In this document: positions 7,921 to 54,956 of the stretch, piece after piece
Numbering within the stretch: the first letter of the stretch is position 1
Layout: each line of letters opens with the position of its first letter
Origin: Aerococcus sanguinicola
Lineage (GTDB): Bacteria; Bacillota; Bacilli; Lactobacillales; Aerococcaceae
Reading direction: 5' to 3'
NCBI RefSeq assembly: GCF_001543145.1
Contig: NZ_CP014160.1
Location: 1,922,001 to 1,986,000 of the forward strand
Length of the DNA: 64,000 bases
Program-made: the position numbers and the translations under genes
Notes under the pieces: generated by a model
The model's input: the letters and a program-made list of their open reading frames with translations, nothing else
What the model was told of the DNA's origin: nothing
The model's database searches: none

Positions 7921-7988
7921 AAAAATTTTTATTTTTCTATTGGTGACTAGTAATTAACTAAGACAAAATTTCCATATTAAGTAGTTTT

Positions 7989-8163
7989 GAGCAGGAGTGG
8001 AGCTCTGAATTTGATCGTTAGCCGTGACTAAGCAAGCGATGTGAATTAGGGATAGTCGGCGTCAGCCGTTACTAGCCCTTTGAAGCTCGCTAGGCGAGGG
8101 ACCTTGGCCCGAGCCGGTGCCACGGCTCTTTAACGATCAAATTCAGAAGTGGAACGGATGCTC
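7989..8163 (+). repeat. 175-bp structured repeat, copy A
   Basis: The same 175-bp sequence occurs at 32700-32874. Conserved folds: ends GAGCA/TGCTC, a perfect 14-bp arm pair (8007-8020 with 8131-8144), then GCCGTG pairing with CACGGC, and inside it hairpins GGG..AGTCGGC/GCCG..ACT..CCC and CTCGC-TAG-GCGAG. An outer 9-bp inverted pair, TATTGGTGA (7938-7946) and TCACCAATA (8162-8170), may mark the true ends of this copy. It fills the convergent gap between nrdH and the trpZ-like gene. No ORF inside. It could be a structured RNA or a small non-autonomous mobile element. Confidence 0.85.
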
Positions 8164-13724: not shown

Positions 13725-13760
13725 AAAAAGGAAACTGGATTTTTGCCAGTTTCCTTTTTT
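13725..13760. terminator. Bidirectional terminator after lexA
   Basis: AAAAAGGAAACTGG pairs with CCAGTTTCCTTTTT around ATTTTTG. T-runs on both strands would end lexA transcripts (plus) and read-through from apt (minus). Confidence 0.85.
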
Positions 13761-13790: not shown

Positions 13791-13908
13791 TAGTTGGGTT
13801 CGACTTGGCAGGCTCGGAGTGATTTCACAAGTCAGAAACGAACGAATGCTTCGCTCTTATTCTGACTTGCTCCAATCATCCGAGTCTAACCGCCAAGTCT
13901 CACACCCT
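13791..13908 (+). repeat. 117-bp palindromic repeat, unit 1a
   Basis: Begins TAGTTGGGTTCG and ends CTCACACCCT, the conserved family ends. Arms pair as ACTTGGC/GCCAAGT, CTCGG/CCGAG and AAGTCAGAA/TTCTGACTT. Its closest relative is unit 3a, where CTCGG/CCGAG has become CTTGG/CCAAG and the inner stem is replaced on both arms. Confidence 0.88.
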
Positions 13909-13912
13909 TTCC

Positions 13913-14031
13913 TAGTCGGGTTCGCAAAGGCAGAAAAGGAGTGACTTCAGCAAAGGGAAACGATCGGCTAAAGCCGCTCTTATCCTCTTTGCCTCCAGTC
14001 ATCCCTTTCTAACCGCCTTTGCTCACACCCT
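13913..14031 (+). repeat. 117-bp palindromic repeat, unit 1b
   Basis: Ends TAGTCGGGTTCG...CTCACACCCT. Arms pair as GCAAAGGC/GCCTTTGC, TGACT/AGTCA and GCAAAG/CTTTGC, with a CGGCT-AA-AGCCG tip. Nearly identical to unit 3c. Four bases from unit 1a. Confidence 0.88.
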
Positions 14032-14147
14032 AGTTGGGCTCGGGCCGGCAGCTTTCCTGTCACTTCACAAGTCCCCGCAGCAGTCTTTCAGACTGCTCTG
14101 GTGACTTGCTCCAGTGAAGGAAAGCTAAACGCCAGCCCTCACACCCT
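14031..14147 (+). repeat. 117-bp palindromic repeat, unit 1c
   Basis: TAGTTGGGCTCG...CTCACACCCT, directly abutting unit 1b (one shared base). Arms pair as GGGC-C-GGC/GCC-A-GCCC, CTTTCC/GGAAAG and TCACTT..AAGTC/GACTT..AGTGA. It ends 4 bases from the apt stop codon. Confidence 0.88.
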
Positions 14148-30596: not shown

Positions 30597-30651
30597 CTCA
30601 AGGGGCACAAATTAACAAAGAAAGCCATTTCCTGACAGAATCTTAAGCTGT

Positions 30652-30686
30652 TAAAAAAGTCCGACTGCTTCCTACAGTCGGACTTT
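30652..30686 (-). terminator. Terminator of the small membrane protein gene
   Basis: AAAGTCCGACTG (30656-30667) pairs perfectly with CAGTCGGACTTT (30675-30686); the minus-strand product continues into a run of T. Confidence 0.8.
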
Positions 30687-30774
30687 AAATTTCTTAAACG
30701 AAAAGACGGTCTAAATTTAAGTTCTAAATGAGATTTGCTGTTATGAACTAAAGGGCAAAAGCAATGGCCGTTAA

Positions 30775-30954
30775 TTAATTTTTCCTGTTAGTGTTTCGGA
30801 TATCGCCTTCTGCTAGGATCATCAGACCCCCACTAGCCAAGATAACAATTAGTCCAAAGATAAAATTGACGATTTTATCTTGAAAAAAGGGGGATCCAAA
30901 AATCAAAAGCCCCAATACAATCACAAGCACAAAGGCATGGTATTTATTTTTCAT
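30775..30954 (-). CDS. Small two-helix membrane protein, unknown
   Basis: A 59-residue protein starting MKNKYHAFVLVIVLGLL, with two hydrophobic helices (about residues 8-22 and 30-48), a short FFQDK linker and a charged tail (GDIRNTNRKN). AGCAGG lies 8 bases before the ATG at 30954 and a good terminator follows, which supports a real gene. No family recognised. Its neighbours (GH3, zur) suggest nothing specific. Confidence 0.55.
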   Translation of the reverse strand: MKNKYHAFVLVIVLGLLIFGSPFFQDKIVNFIFGLIVILASGGLMILAEGDIRNTNRKN

Positions 30955-31033
30955 GTCAATCACCTGCTGGATTTTTATGGCTTCTATTAACTACACTTTC
31001 ATTTCAGCAAAATACTAAACCACAATAAACATC

Positions 31034-32509: not shown

Positions 32510-32549
32510 TAGTTGGGTTCGCAAGTCTAAATGCCAAGTCTCATACCCT
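32510..32549 (+). repeat. Internally deleted palindromic repeat
   Basis: TAGTTGGGTTCG at the left and CTCATACCCT at the right are the family ends, but only 18 bases (with CCAAGT as in units 1a/3a) remain between them instead of ~95. Confidence 0.65.
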
Positions 32550-32699
32550 GTATATGAAGTGGATGTCAGATCTGACTTTGGAAACATTTTTTTGAAAGAA
32601 GTTCGTTATTAGAAAAAACAGTGGATCTTTTTATCCCAGTCTCTTTTCTGCTAATTTTGATGATTAGTAACTAATAATTGATTTCTACCAATTATTTTT

Positions 32700-32874
32700 G
32701 AGCAGGAGTGGAGCTTTGAATTTGATCGTTAGCCATGAATAAGCAAGCGATGTGAATTAGGGATAGTTGGCTTTAGCCTTACTAGCCCTTTGAAGCTCGC
32801 TAGGCGAGAGACCTTGGCTCGAGCCGATGCCATGGCTTTTTAACGATCAAATTCAAAAAACGTAACGGATGCTC
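32700..32874 (+). repeat. 175-bp structured repeat, copy B
   Basis: About 85-90% identical by eye to copy A (7989-8163) and in the same orientation. The 14-bp arms are unchanged (32718-32731 and 32841-32854). The adjoining stem reads GCCATG/CATGGC here against GCCGTG/CACGGC in copy A, a compensatory change that keeps pairing. CTCGC-TAG-GCGAG is conserved. It lies in the convergent gap between the PPDK-regulator and RDD genes. The rest of 32550-32699 shows no gene. Confidence 0.85.
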
Positions 32875-40109: not shown

Positions 40110-40873
40110 TTCTGGTCTTCCTTTCTTTGCGAGGCCGTGGCCTCAGTTTCATCTAAGTGGAGTAAAGCGAGGAGGCTGGCCTTGTCCACTTCCTGGTAGT
40201 CTCCCCGGTCCAGATTAGGGTCTAAGCGCAAGCCGCCCATGCGGAGTCGCTTGAGATAGGTCACTTCCTTACCGACCGCTTGGAACATCCGCTTGACCTG
40301 GTGGAACTTCCCTTCGTGGAGGATGAGACGAATCTGGCTCCTCCCAGAATCCAGGTCGACCTGGTCAATAAAGAGTTCCGCGGGCAGGCAAGTTTCTCCT
40401 TGGTCGATGGCCAAACCGGAAGCAAAAGCCTCCTGGTCGTCAGCAGTCACGATACCTGCAATTTCCGCATAGTATTCCTTGTCCACCTTCTTGCGTGGGG
40501 ACAGGAGGTCATGGCTGAGCTGGCCATCATTCGTGATCAAAAGCAGGCCTTCCGTGTCCTTATCCAAGCGCCCCACAGGAAAGGGATCGTAGATTTGGAC
40601 CAGGTCTTGGGGCAGAAGATCGGTAACAATGGCTGTCTGCCCGTCCTTAGTCGTGGACAAATAACCGCCTGGCTTGTGCAAGATAAAATAAATGAAGGGT
40701 TGGTAGCGGACGCTCTCCCCATCCAAGCTGACCTGGTCCCGGTCTGGATCCAAATGTTGGTCAACTTTTTTAAGCGTCTGACCGTTCACTTGGACGCGCC
40801 CTTTTTTGATGGCTTGCTTGGCCTCCTTGCGGCTCAAGAGCGTGTAATTAGCAATTAATTTATCTAAGCGCAT
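40106..40873 (-). CDS. rsuA: 16S rRNA pseudouridine synthase (RsuA family)
   Basis: A 255-residue RsuA/RluB-type enzyme: S4 RNA-binding domain (MRLDKLIANYTLLSRKEAKQ, GRVQVNG) and a catalytic domain with the Asp motif VGRLDKDTEGLLLITNDG, plus KVDKEYYAEI and EGKFHQVKRMF. RsuA makes pseudouridine 516 in 16S rRNA; RluB/RluE act on 23S rRNA, and sequence alone favours RsuA moderately. GGAGGAGG precedes the ATG. Confidence 0.85.
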   Translation of the reverse strand: MRLDKLIANYTLLSRKEAKQAIKKGRVQVNGQTLKKVDQHLDPDRDQVSLDGESVRYQPFIYFILHKPGGYLSTTKDGQTAIVTDLLPQDLVQIYDPFPVGRLDKDTEGLLLITNDGQLSHDLLSPRKKVDKEYYAEIAGIVTADDQEAFASGLAIDQGETCLPAELFIDQVDLDSGRSQIRLILHEGKFHQVKRMFQAVGKEVTYLKRLRMGGLRLDPNLDRGDYQEVDKASLLALLHLDETEATASQRKEDQK

Positions 40874-45553: not shown

Positions 45554-45669
45554 AGGGTGTGAGAGGATGCGGGAGAAAGGGACCTCTGGAGTAAAAGGCC
45601 TGAGAAGGCTGAAAGCCTTCGACGGACTTTTGCGAAGAGGAGCCCTTTCTGCATCCTCGAACCCGACTA
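45554..45669 (-). repeat. 117-bp palindromic repeat, unit 2a
   Basis: Family ends in reverse: AGGGTGTGAG at the left and CGAACCCGACTA at the right. Arms pair as AGGATGC/GCATCCT, AGAAAGGG/CCCTTTCT and CCTCT/AAGAGG. Unit 3d carries nearly the same body. Confidence 0.88.
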
Positions 45670-45671
45670 GG

Positions 45672-45788
45672 AGGGTGTGAGGGAGCGCGGGTAGAAGTGG
45701 ACCTCTGGAGCAAAGCGACAGAGAAGAGTGAAAGTCTTCGGCGGCGCTTTGTGAAGAGGAGCCACTTCTGCGCGACCGAACCTGACTG
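45672..45788 (-). repeat. 117-bp palindromic repeat, unit 2b
   Basis: AGGGTGTGAG...CGAACCTGACTG, two bases after unit 2a. Arms pair as GCGC..AGAAGTGG/CCACTTCTGCGC, CCTCT/AAGAGG, AAAGCG/GCGCTTT and AAGA..AAGTCTT. Confidence 0.88.
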
Positions 45789-45789
45789 C

Positions 45790-45842
45790 AGGGTGTGAGA
45801 CTTGGCGGTTAGACTCGGATGTTTGGAGTAAGTCAATCGAAC
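45790..45842 (-). repeat. Truncated palindromic repeat, unit 2c
   Basis: AGGGTGTGAGACTTGGCGGT and then CTCGGATG..TTGGAG..AAGTC match one arm of unit 1a in reverse; the other arm is missing except for a CGAAC remnant. Confidence 0.7.
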
Positions 45843-45875
45843 AGCTAGGCCACCAATCGATTACTAAAGATAACT

Positions 45876-49239: not shown

Positions 49240-49265
49240 GGCTAAGCGCTCTTGCTCACACCCCT
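49240..49265 (+). repeat. Right-end fragment of a palindromic repeat
   Basis: Only the family right end (GCTCACACCCCT) and ~15 bases of arm remain; the left half is missing. It directly precedes unit 3a. Confidence 0.5.
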
Positions 49266-49383
49266 CAGTCGGGTTCGACTTGGCAGGCTTGGAGTGATTT
49301 CACAATTAAGGAACAAGCGAATGCTTCGCTCTTATCCTTAATTGCTCCAATCATCCAAGCCTAATCGCCAAGTCTCACACCCT
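49266..49383 (+). repeat. 117-bp palindromic repeat, unit 3a
   Basis: CAGTCGGGTTCG...CTCACACCCT. Arms pair as ACTTGGC/GCCAAGT, GCTTGG/CCAAGC and AATTAAGGA/TCCTTAATT. Outer parts match unit 1a, but two paired segments differ on both arms at once. Confidence 0.88.
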
Positions 49384-49386
49384 GCT

Positions 49387-49502
49387 TAGTCGGGTTCAGG
49401 CTAGCAGAAATAGCTCCTCTTCGCAAAAATCCGCCAAAGTCCTTCAGACTTCTCTGGCTTTTGGTTCCAGAGTTCTATTTCTCCCGCTAGCCTTCACACC
49501 CT
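49387..49502 (+). repeat. 117-bp palindromic repeat, unit 3b
   Basis: TAGTCGGGTTC...TTCACACCCT. Arms pair as GGCTAGC/GCTAGCC, AGAAATAG/CTATTTCT, CTCT/AGAG and AAGTC/GACTT. Body subtype resembles 2a/3d (TCCTCTTCGCAAAA). Confidence 0.88.
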
Positions 49503-49505
49503 ACA

Positions 49506-49624
49506 CAGTCGGGGTCGCAAAGGCAGAGAGGGAGTGACTTCAGCAAAGTGGAATGACCGGCTAAAGCCGCTCTTATCCTCTTTGCCTCCAGTCAACCCTT
49601 TCTAACCGCCTTTGCTCACACCCT
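49506..49624 (+). repeat. 117-bp palindromic repeat, unit 3c
   Basis: CAGTCGGGGTCG...CTCACACCCT. Nearly identical to unit 1b (13913-14031), with the same GCAAAGGC/GCCTTTGC arms and CGGCT-AA-AGCCG tip. Confidence 0.88.
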
Positions 49625-49628
49625 TAGC

Positions 49629-49745
49629 TAGTCGGGTTCGAGGATGCAGAAAGGGCTCCTCTTCGCAAAAGTTCGTCGAAGGCTTTCAGCCTTCTCAGGC
49701 CTTTTACTCCAGAGCTCCCTTTCTAACCGCCTTTGCTCACACCCT
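49629..49745 (+). repeat. 117-bp palindromic repeat, unit 3d (chimeric)
   Basis: The left arm and body match unit 2a in reverse (GAGGATGCAGAAAGGG...), but after CCCTTTCT the right end is that of unit 3c (AACCGCCTTTGCTCACACCC). The terminal arms therefore no longer pair. It ends on the first base of the dtd stop codon. Confidence 0.85.
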
Positions 49746-54594: not shown

Positions 54595-54956
54595 TGTAAA
54601 TTTCGGGTAATCGCGGGTAGTCATACCTGAGGAAAGTCCATGCTCACACTGACTGAGAGGTCAGTAGTGTTCGTGCTTAGCGAAAGCATAAGCTAAGGCA
54701 GAGACGGCGGGAAAAACGGCTTCAGCCCTAGGGCTATGCCCCAGTATCCCTGAAAAGTGCCACAGTGACGAAGTTAGTTGGGAAACCAGCTAAGTGGAAC
54801 GAGGTAAACCCCTCGAGTGAGCAACCCAAATTCGGTAGGGGCACTTGGCAAGCAGAAATGAATGTGAGCCGAGGCAGCAATGCAGATAGATGATTACCGA
54901 ACTTGCAAACAACCTGGGATGCAAGGGAACAGAACATGGCTTATAGAAATTTACAT
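54595..54956 (+). ncRNA. rnpB: RNase P RNA (type B)
   Basis: The catalytic RNA that trims tRNA 5' leaders. TGTAAATTTC at the 5' end pairs with GAAATTTACA at the 3' end (P1). Conserved cores are GAGGAAAGTCCATGCTC (P4 5' half, J3/4), CAGAGACGG, GAAACCCCTCG-like and the 3' ACAGAAC..GGCTTATAG stretch. About 362 nt, the normal size for the Bacillus-type RNA. Position between gpsB and an RlmL-like gene agrees. Confidence 0.95.

Follow-up and report, generated by a model that had tools for sequence, protein, structure and literature searches.

Several families of small repeats offer points of comparison for the hairpin units described here. REP and BIME sequences are reported to lie often no more than 20 bp from the 3' end of a gene and to supply its TAG stop codon (PMC3733652); the same paper names EFAR among the MITEs. 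Efa-1 of Enterococcus faecalis is 163 nt long, occurs in 65 copies and forms a pair of adjacent stem-loops (PMC2267715). In Streptococcus pneumoniae, the small repeats RUP, BOX and SPRITE occur in clusters and are found inserted in each other (PMC10969869), and IS630-Spn1 has been suggested to mobilise the 107 bp RUP (PMC2229807).

We analysed a stretch of 64,000 nt (the window; bases 1922001-1986000) from a one-contig Aerococcus genome of 2033849 bases (2.03 Mb; G000), for which a preliminary description had reported a family of ~117-bp palindromes with conserved ends and co-varying arms. The observation is real, and larger than first described: its relation to stop codons, the gene-sense orientation of the units, their assembly one by one and their wide distribution had been overlooked. 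The units of the window are one hairpin each, of 115-118 nt.

Results

Hairpin units of the window

A scan of the window with the end pattern recovered all nine complete units that had been reported, at positions that agreed within 1 nt (Table 1). Strands in the table are gene-sense, the scan having labelled the same units with the opposite sign; read in this sense, a unit runs AGGGTGTGAG...CGAACCCGACT. Two of the fragments, of which there were said to be at least three, were confirmed, and a third was not found. The scan also returned single-mismatch end matches at 32540 and 41965, and a length-matched pair of ends at 40217-40339 (-) was dropped as a chance match with poor ends. In unit 3d, the final A of the TAA stop codon of the dtd-like gene is also the first A of AGGG. 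An alignment of the nine units spans 118 columns, of which 38 are invariant.

Table 1. Hairpin units and associated features of the window.
Feature	Position	Strand	Basis
Intrinsic-terminator-like inverted repeat, 3' of lexA-like gene, distal to apt array	13725..13759	.	inverted repeat
Unit 1a, gene-sense AGGGTGTGAG...ACCCAACT, distal in apt array	13792..13908	-	end scan, alignment, fold
Unit 1b, apt array	13914..14031	-	end scan, alignment, fold
Unit 1c, adjoins TAG stop of apt-like gene (TAG-GAA-AGGGTGTGAG)	14032..14147	-	end scan, flank reading
Unit 2b, adjoins TAA stop of birA-like gene (TAA-AG-AGGGTGTGAG)	45554..45668	+	end scan, flank reading
Unit 2a	45672..45787	+	end scan, alignment
Truncated distal unit; first arm and part of loop retained	45790..45860	+	profile search
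Short truncated distal unit, limits approximate	49240..49264	-	end scan, flank reading
Unit 3a	49267..49383	-	end scan, alignment, fold
Unit 3b	49388..49502	-	end scan, alignment, fold
Unit 3c	49507..49624	-	end scan, alignment, fold
Unit 3d, adjoins TAA stop of dtd-like gene; chimeric outer stem	49630..49745	-	end scan, fold, stem typing

No family of Rfam 15 covered the units at its gathering threshold, and below it there were only implausible matches, on one array and four relatives. The sole Rfam match in the window at that threshold was a bacterial RNase P class B RNA at 54599-54948 (296 bits). Among the titles listed by literature searches, none describes the repeat in Aerococcus.

Copies and arrays throughout the genome

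The sequence CTCACACCCT occurs 199 times in the genome, and its reversed control does not occur. A covariance model built from the nine window units (R1) detected at least 150 units in G000, with 150 of 536 candidates scored. A profile search yielded 221 near-full units of ~117 nt and 23 partial ones, grouped in 103 arrays; these numbers are lower bounds because they come from 98 stretches chosen around known matches plus the window. Arrays contain one to six full units, separated in 128 of 140 cases by spacers of 2-5 nt, and only one of the 103 mixes orientations; at G000:1052672, one unit lies inside the loop of another. Eight outer-stem types are common among the units, and nine clusters hold six or more units each.

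Paired changes maintain the fold

Eight of the nine window units folded far beyond dinucleotide shuffles (z -5.2 to -9.3). The remaining one, at 49630-49745, did so weakly (z -2.1), because its outer arms come from two subfamilies. RNAalifold placed 36 pairs on the nine units, 25 of them with double-sided changes, and the paired arm changes that had been quoted for units 1a and 3a are present in the alignment. We extended the comparison to 145 distinct units, obtained from the best 150 of 239 matches by counting identical rows once, as this set included overlap duplicates. The inner sequences vary, yet pairing is kept, and paired changes are far above both the shuffled and the slid controls: pairing cells reached 93.3% (67.7% in shuffles), double-sided changed cells 1253 (393 in shuffles), and the covariation score 0.618, whereas shuffles gave 0.161 and slid structures no more than 0.165. 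Across genera, 56 sequences contained 577 double-changed cells versus 173 in shuffles.

The ends of the hairpin pair over 4 bp, followed by a loop and then 8 bp, and a long terminal inverted repeat is absent; asymmetric internal loops (in sense, GTGA/GA, a GNTT bulge and GGA/GA) recur among the units, and the same loop motifs are found again in other genera. A T.C mismatch is present in 36 of the 145 units. Among the 221 units, 29 have outer stems with at least three mismatches out of eight, and in 17 of these the two arms exactly match different common subfamilies, a number that rises to 20 when a variant base is tolerated; these chimeric stems indicate that units recombine, without immediate correction. 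Omitting three poor columns (48/74, 54/67 and 57/64), Watson-Crick pairs account for 4581 of 4784 cells (95.8%), the remainder being sense G.U (56), sense A.C (28) and other mismatches (119). Wobble, at about 1% of cells, is rare, and this proportion is low for RNA helices.

The preliminary description had proposed that the fold is either selected or copied by a hairpin-templated process; that it is kept by paired changes holds, whereas templated copying was not established. If one arm were corrected from the other during replication, the arms would match irrespective of selection, and the predominance of Watson-Crick cells and the scarcity of wobble would fit, as would the comparison of nearest-neighbour units, which differ by 77 double-sided along with 189 one-sided pair differences, a few units differing solely by one compensated pair. 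However, such correction is hard to reconcile with the persistence of the asymmetric loops, the chimeric stems and the inherited T.C mismatch, and at the smallest distances one-sided changes outnumber double-sided ones by 21 to 3. We regard templated correction as an unlikely origin of the matched arms. That loops and chimeric stems persist and a mismatch is inherited favours selection for pairing as the principal cause of the coupling.

Arrays lie mostly at stop codons and gene ends

With frames called mechanically, without a gene finder, 56 of the 103 arrays start between -3 and +8 nt from the stop codon of a frame of at least 90 codons. A further 13 long frames enter the element: its own TGA (AGG GTG TGA) terminates seven of these, a TAG 21-23 nt inside terminates three, and three end elsewhere. 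A T-run precedes seven of the 47 arrays outside the -3 to +8 class. Arrays occupy convergent intergenic settings in 40 cases, co-directional ones in the sense of the units in 38, other co-directional ones in 16 and divergent ones in eight, with one undetermined.

Stop codons at the 56 arrays were TAA in 47 cases, TAG in eight and TGA in one, as compared with 150, 57 and 25, respectively, at 232 stops elsewhere (P 0.006). Nevertheless, the TAA excess depends on the tally used: it disappeared when we counted long-frame stops within 40 nt of any array (TAA 35, TAG 13, TGA 11; 35/59).

The orthologous apt and dtd sites are mostly empty. R1 found units at the apt locus in two of 21 genomes (G000 and G001) and at the dtd locus in two of 20 (the same genomes), leaving 19 and 18, respectively, without units, although for G009 and G008 the absence at apt rests on the R1 search, which may miss diverged units. 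Where the flank was read, the apt and dtd genes were usually followed, by eye, by a short 3' UTR with a terminator-like hairpin. Separate terminator-like repeats also stand beside two of the three window arrays, and a role of the element as intrinsic terminator in the window was rejected on this ground. As the apt array lies between the stop codon and a terminator-like repeat, it would be expected to be transcribed as strong 3' UTR hairpins; from their position, the same may be true of the arrays in general.

Arrays are assembled from single units and turn over

The flank that precedes the first unit tends to agree with the first spacer. Their last 2 nt matched in 26 of 69 cases (11.1 expected) and their last 4 nt in six of 48 (1.1 expected by permutation); the second spacer also matched the flank in six of 29 cases (0.9 expected). 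Two-unit blocks were not shared beyond chance, with none found against 3.7 in shuffles at a Hamming distance of up to 8, and 17 against 20.5 at up to 12, indicating that units are added singly; copying of multi-unit blocks was rejected.

Adjacent units of the same subfamily are lacking in G000 (0 of 117 pairs; 12.4 expected). At lag 2 they occurred in two of 49 cases (5.1 expected, P 0.10), at lag 3 in two of 16 (1.7 expected), and stretches of the sister genome G001 contained one pair of like neighbours out of 26 (about 2.4 expected). This lack is not general: in other genera, adjacent units of equal score and GC do occur. L379 and L380, from genomes G342 and G291, carry such units side by side, unlike the window genome. 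Their absence is most simply explained by recombination that deletes like neighbours, and collapse of identical neighbours during assembly may contribute to it.

A truncated unit closes 72 of 101 arrays, the two further arrays with a partial proximal unit being omitted from this tally. Of these truncated units, 71 keep 7-69 nt and one keeps 106, with none between 75 and 105, which indicates that the loss extends to or past the loop. The same pattern would arise by retro-copying, if reverse transcription of antisense unit RNA took place at a nick close to the stop codon and copying stalled in the first arm but ran freely once past the loop. A similar pattern would result, though, if the hairpin loop were cleaved and the distal part then deleted, and very short remnants may be products of decay. 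Moreover, multi-unit copying is not seen, and RVT_1 had no match in five element-bearing genomes (G009, G010, G012, G013 and G032), G000 having one; a reverse transcriptase was accordingly rejected as a requirement, and retro-copying appears highly improbable. Scores likewise gave no sign that the units nearest the stop codon are younger, and we rejected this idea: among full units, the first scored higher in 33 arrays and the last in 37 (44 versus 33 when partial units were included).

Comparison with G001, whose flanks are in most cases approximately 94-96% identical to those of G000, showed that array sites are mostly common to both genomes and that their contents turn over. In the fetched stretches, for which 20 of the 29 sister-genome arrays were paired by hand, only six of 31 full units had a same-site counterpart of at least 90% identity, and for only seven of the 31 was the same-site unit the best match. 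Near-clean empty partner sites were found in G001 for two of the 22 arrays mapped by both flanks, seven further arrays being placed by one flank only. The clearest of them, opposite G000:331031, lies inside another palindromic repeat and shows no visible target duplication.

A second palindromic repeat family, of about 170 bp with 17-nt perfect arms, is present in the window at 7979-8148 and 32690-32858. From flank reading, its copies at G000:185245, 331031, 363126, 519175 and 1414644 carry a hairpin unit at a similar internal place. A partial unit of the sister genome (L178:8540-8644) lies at the place that corresponds to window positions ~30600-31030.

Turnover bears on the possibility that the units are kept mainly as 3' UTR RNA elements, protecting mRNA ends, slowing terminating ribosomes or buffering transcription, with mobility old or secondary. 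Such a role would suit the placement next to stop codons, the sites mostly common to the sister genome and the loop motifs that recur across genera; additionally, the gene-sense strand is the more stable one in 217 of 221 units with RNA parameters and in 215 of 221 with DNA parameters, and sense G.U cells are twice as numerous as sense A.C. This last bias could also reflect mutation bias on the transcribed strand, however, and the low wobble content, the change in unit identity and the orthologous apt and dtd genes that mostly lack units all tell against an RNA role, which we consider unlikely as the primary one.

Distribution across Lactobacillales and plasmids

R1 matched 20 of 60 genomes, its own included. 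A second covariance model (R2), built from 56 sequences of several genera, matched nine of nine Lactobacillales loci and none of 15 unrelated loci. With strict filters and nine candidates scored per genome, it found the repeat in 106 of the 395 Lactobacillales genomes sampled and in 35 of 80 genera, and gave seven to 73 matches in each of ten chosen genomes. Carriers include Trichococcus ilyis, Desemzia incerta, Atopococcus tabaci, Aerococcus sp. HMSC062A02 and Aerococcus tenax, whereas the Aerococcus genomes G003, G004, G007 and G011 gave no match in the genome searches with R1 and R2. With structural relatives in many lactic-acid-type bacteria, the units appear to belong to a large class of mobile hairpin repeats.

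By eye, a terminator-like second hairpin lies 3' of the unit in at least one copy from each of four genomes (G025, G029, G018 and G058), whose comparison gave pairwise homology of 108-216 nt, and likewise in Atopococcus, Desemzia, A. tenax and one of two Trichococcus copies. Several relatives carry a lone unit with this second hairpin behind it.

A unit of family f3 matched 119 plasmid records, from Enterococcus (109), Lactiplantibacillus (6), Lactococcus (3) and Lacticaseibacillus (1). Two plasmid copies scored 24.6 and 23.2 bits with R2, the latter (E 5e-4) from an E. faecium plasmid; a unit of family f8 matched no plasmid record. For the window units, matches were limited to one A. tenax record, with a unit at 87% identity, and no phage matched; a plasmid or phage origin was rejected. 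The 591-kb A. tenax record CP127381.1 (L343), labelled as a plasmid, carries rpsR and a gene for a DHH-family phosphoesterase, and may be a piece of chromosome under the wrong label.

Discussion

We consider it probable, though well short of certain, that the units are MITE-like, non-autonomous hairpin insertion elements, added singly at gene ends and growing into arrays. Each unit is a single imperfect hairpin of ~117 nt whose ends and asymmetric internal loops are constant, and an enzyme, probably acting on one folded strand, would insert it into AT-rich sequence at the end of a gene. Insertion would take place in gene-sense orientation and mostly next to the stop codon; terminators and hairpin loops would be rarer targets, with the unit placed behind the former or within the latter. 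Arrays grow unit by unit, as later units would enter the same spot, and old units are lost or lose their distal arm; where a unit lands, its own stop codons end the frames that run into it. The absence of a target duplication at the clearest empty site and the dependence of the TAA excess on the tally both weaken this interpretation. The lack of a long terminal inverted repeat and the array sites mostly common to the sister genome also count against it, and a longer, autonomous copy was not encountered.

We searched for two candidate mover families, Y1_Tnp (PF01797) and RVT_1. Y1_Tnp had no match in six element-bearing Aerococcus genomes (G000, G001, G009, G012, G013 and G014) and is present in some others; with this family missing from several element-bearing genomes, a RAYT/IS200-type transposase was rejected as a requirement for mobility.

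A bolder proposal, which we put forward tentatively and hold to be rather doubtful, is that Lactobacillales possess a transposition system that homes to gene ends through the stop-codon context and the folded strand, repeatedly adds single units at the same address, and rejects or eliminates neighbours that belong to its own subfamily. Arrays would then stay mixed and addresses would persist, and the diversification of arms under full pairing would be an outcome of this exclusion.

With 106 carriers among 395 sampled genomes and no Rfam match in the copies tested, this structured repeat class would represent a gap in annotation. The arrays also provide hundreds of natural gene-end hairpins whose composition differs between near-identical genomes, which makes it possible to test how elements settle at stop codons without gene disruption, and to distinguish selection from arm-to-arm copying as the source of paired arm changes in DNA palindromes. 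Exclusion of like neighbours is an unusual and measurable property.

The units share with RAYT-associated REP and BIME repeats the occurrence of many copies downstream of genes. REPs measure 20-40 bp, carry a GTAG or CGTC tag and are in many families oppositely oriented, whereas the Aerococcus units are ~117 nt long, have the ends AGGGTGTGAG and CGAACCCGACT and keep the same orientation; the Y1 transposase of the REP/RAYT system had no counterpart among Y1_Tnp matches in G000. MITEs are related to an IS and have terminal inverted repeats of 15-30 bp, in place of which the units pair over 4 bp, a loop and 8 bp. As to the target-site duplication of MITEs, flank and first spacer agree at 4 nt in six of 48 cases (1.1 expected), and the clearest empty site lacks a duplication. 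RUP, BOX and SPRITE of S. pneumoniae, compared by description, are small clustering repeats like the Aerococcus units.

The likeliest known relative, again by description, is perhaps EFAR/Efa-1 of Enterococcus, and the earlier statement that no named family has these ends, which agrees with the Rfam result, may therefore be too strong. EFAR/Efa-1 and the Aerococcus units are alike in being intergenic, based on hairpins and present in tens of copies in hosts of the same order. The f3 unit, moreover, finds most of its plasmid matches in Enterococcus, but R2 gives the E. faecium plasmid copy only 23.2 bits. They are set apart by description, in that Efa-1 has two adjacent stem-loops over ~163 nt and the window units are single hairpins of 115-118 nt, in head-to-tail arrays at stop codons. 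EFAR, too, is reportedly assembled from many sequence types, and its target is said to be a stem-loop that is partly deleted on insertion. From flank reading, Aerococcus units are seen in another palindromic repeat, in the loop of a unit and, for seven arrays, after a T-run, although most are at stop codons. Finally, the two-stem-loop plan reported for Efa-1 resembles that of the relatives in which a unit is followed by a terminator-like second hairpin.
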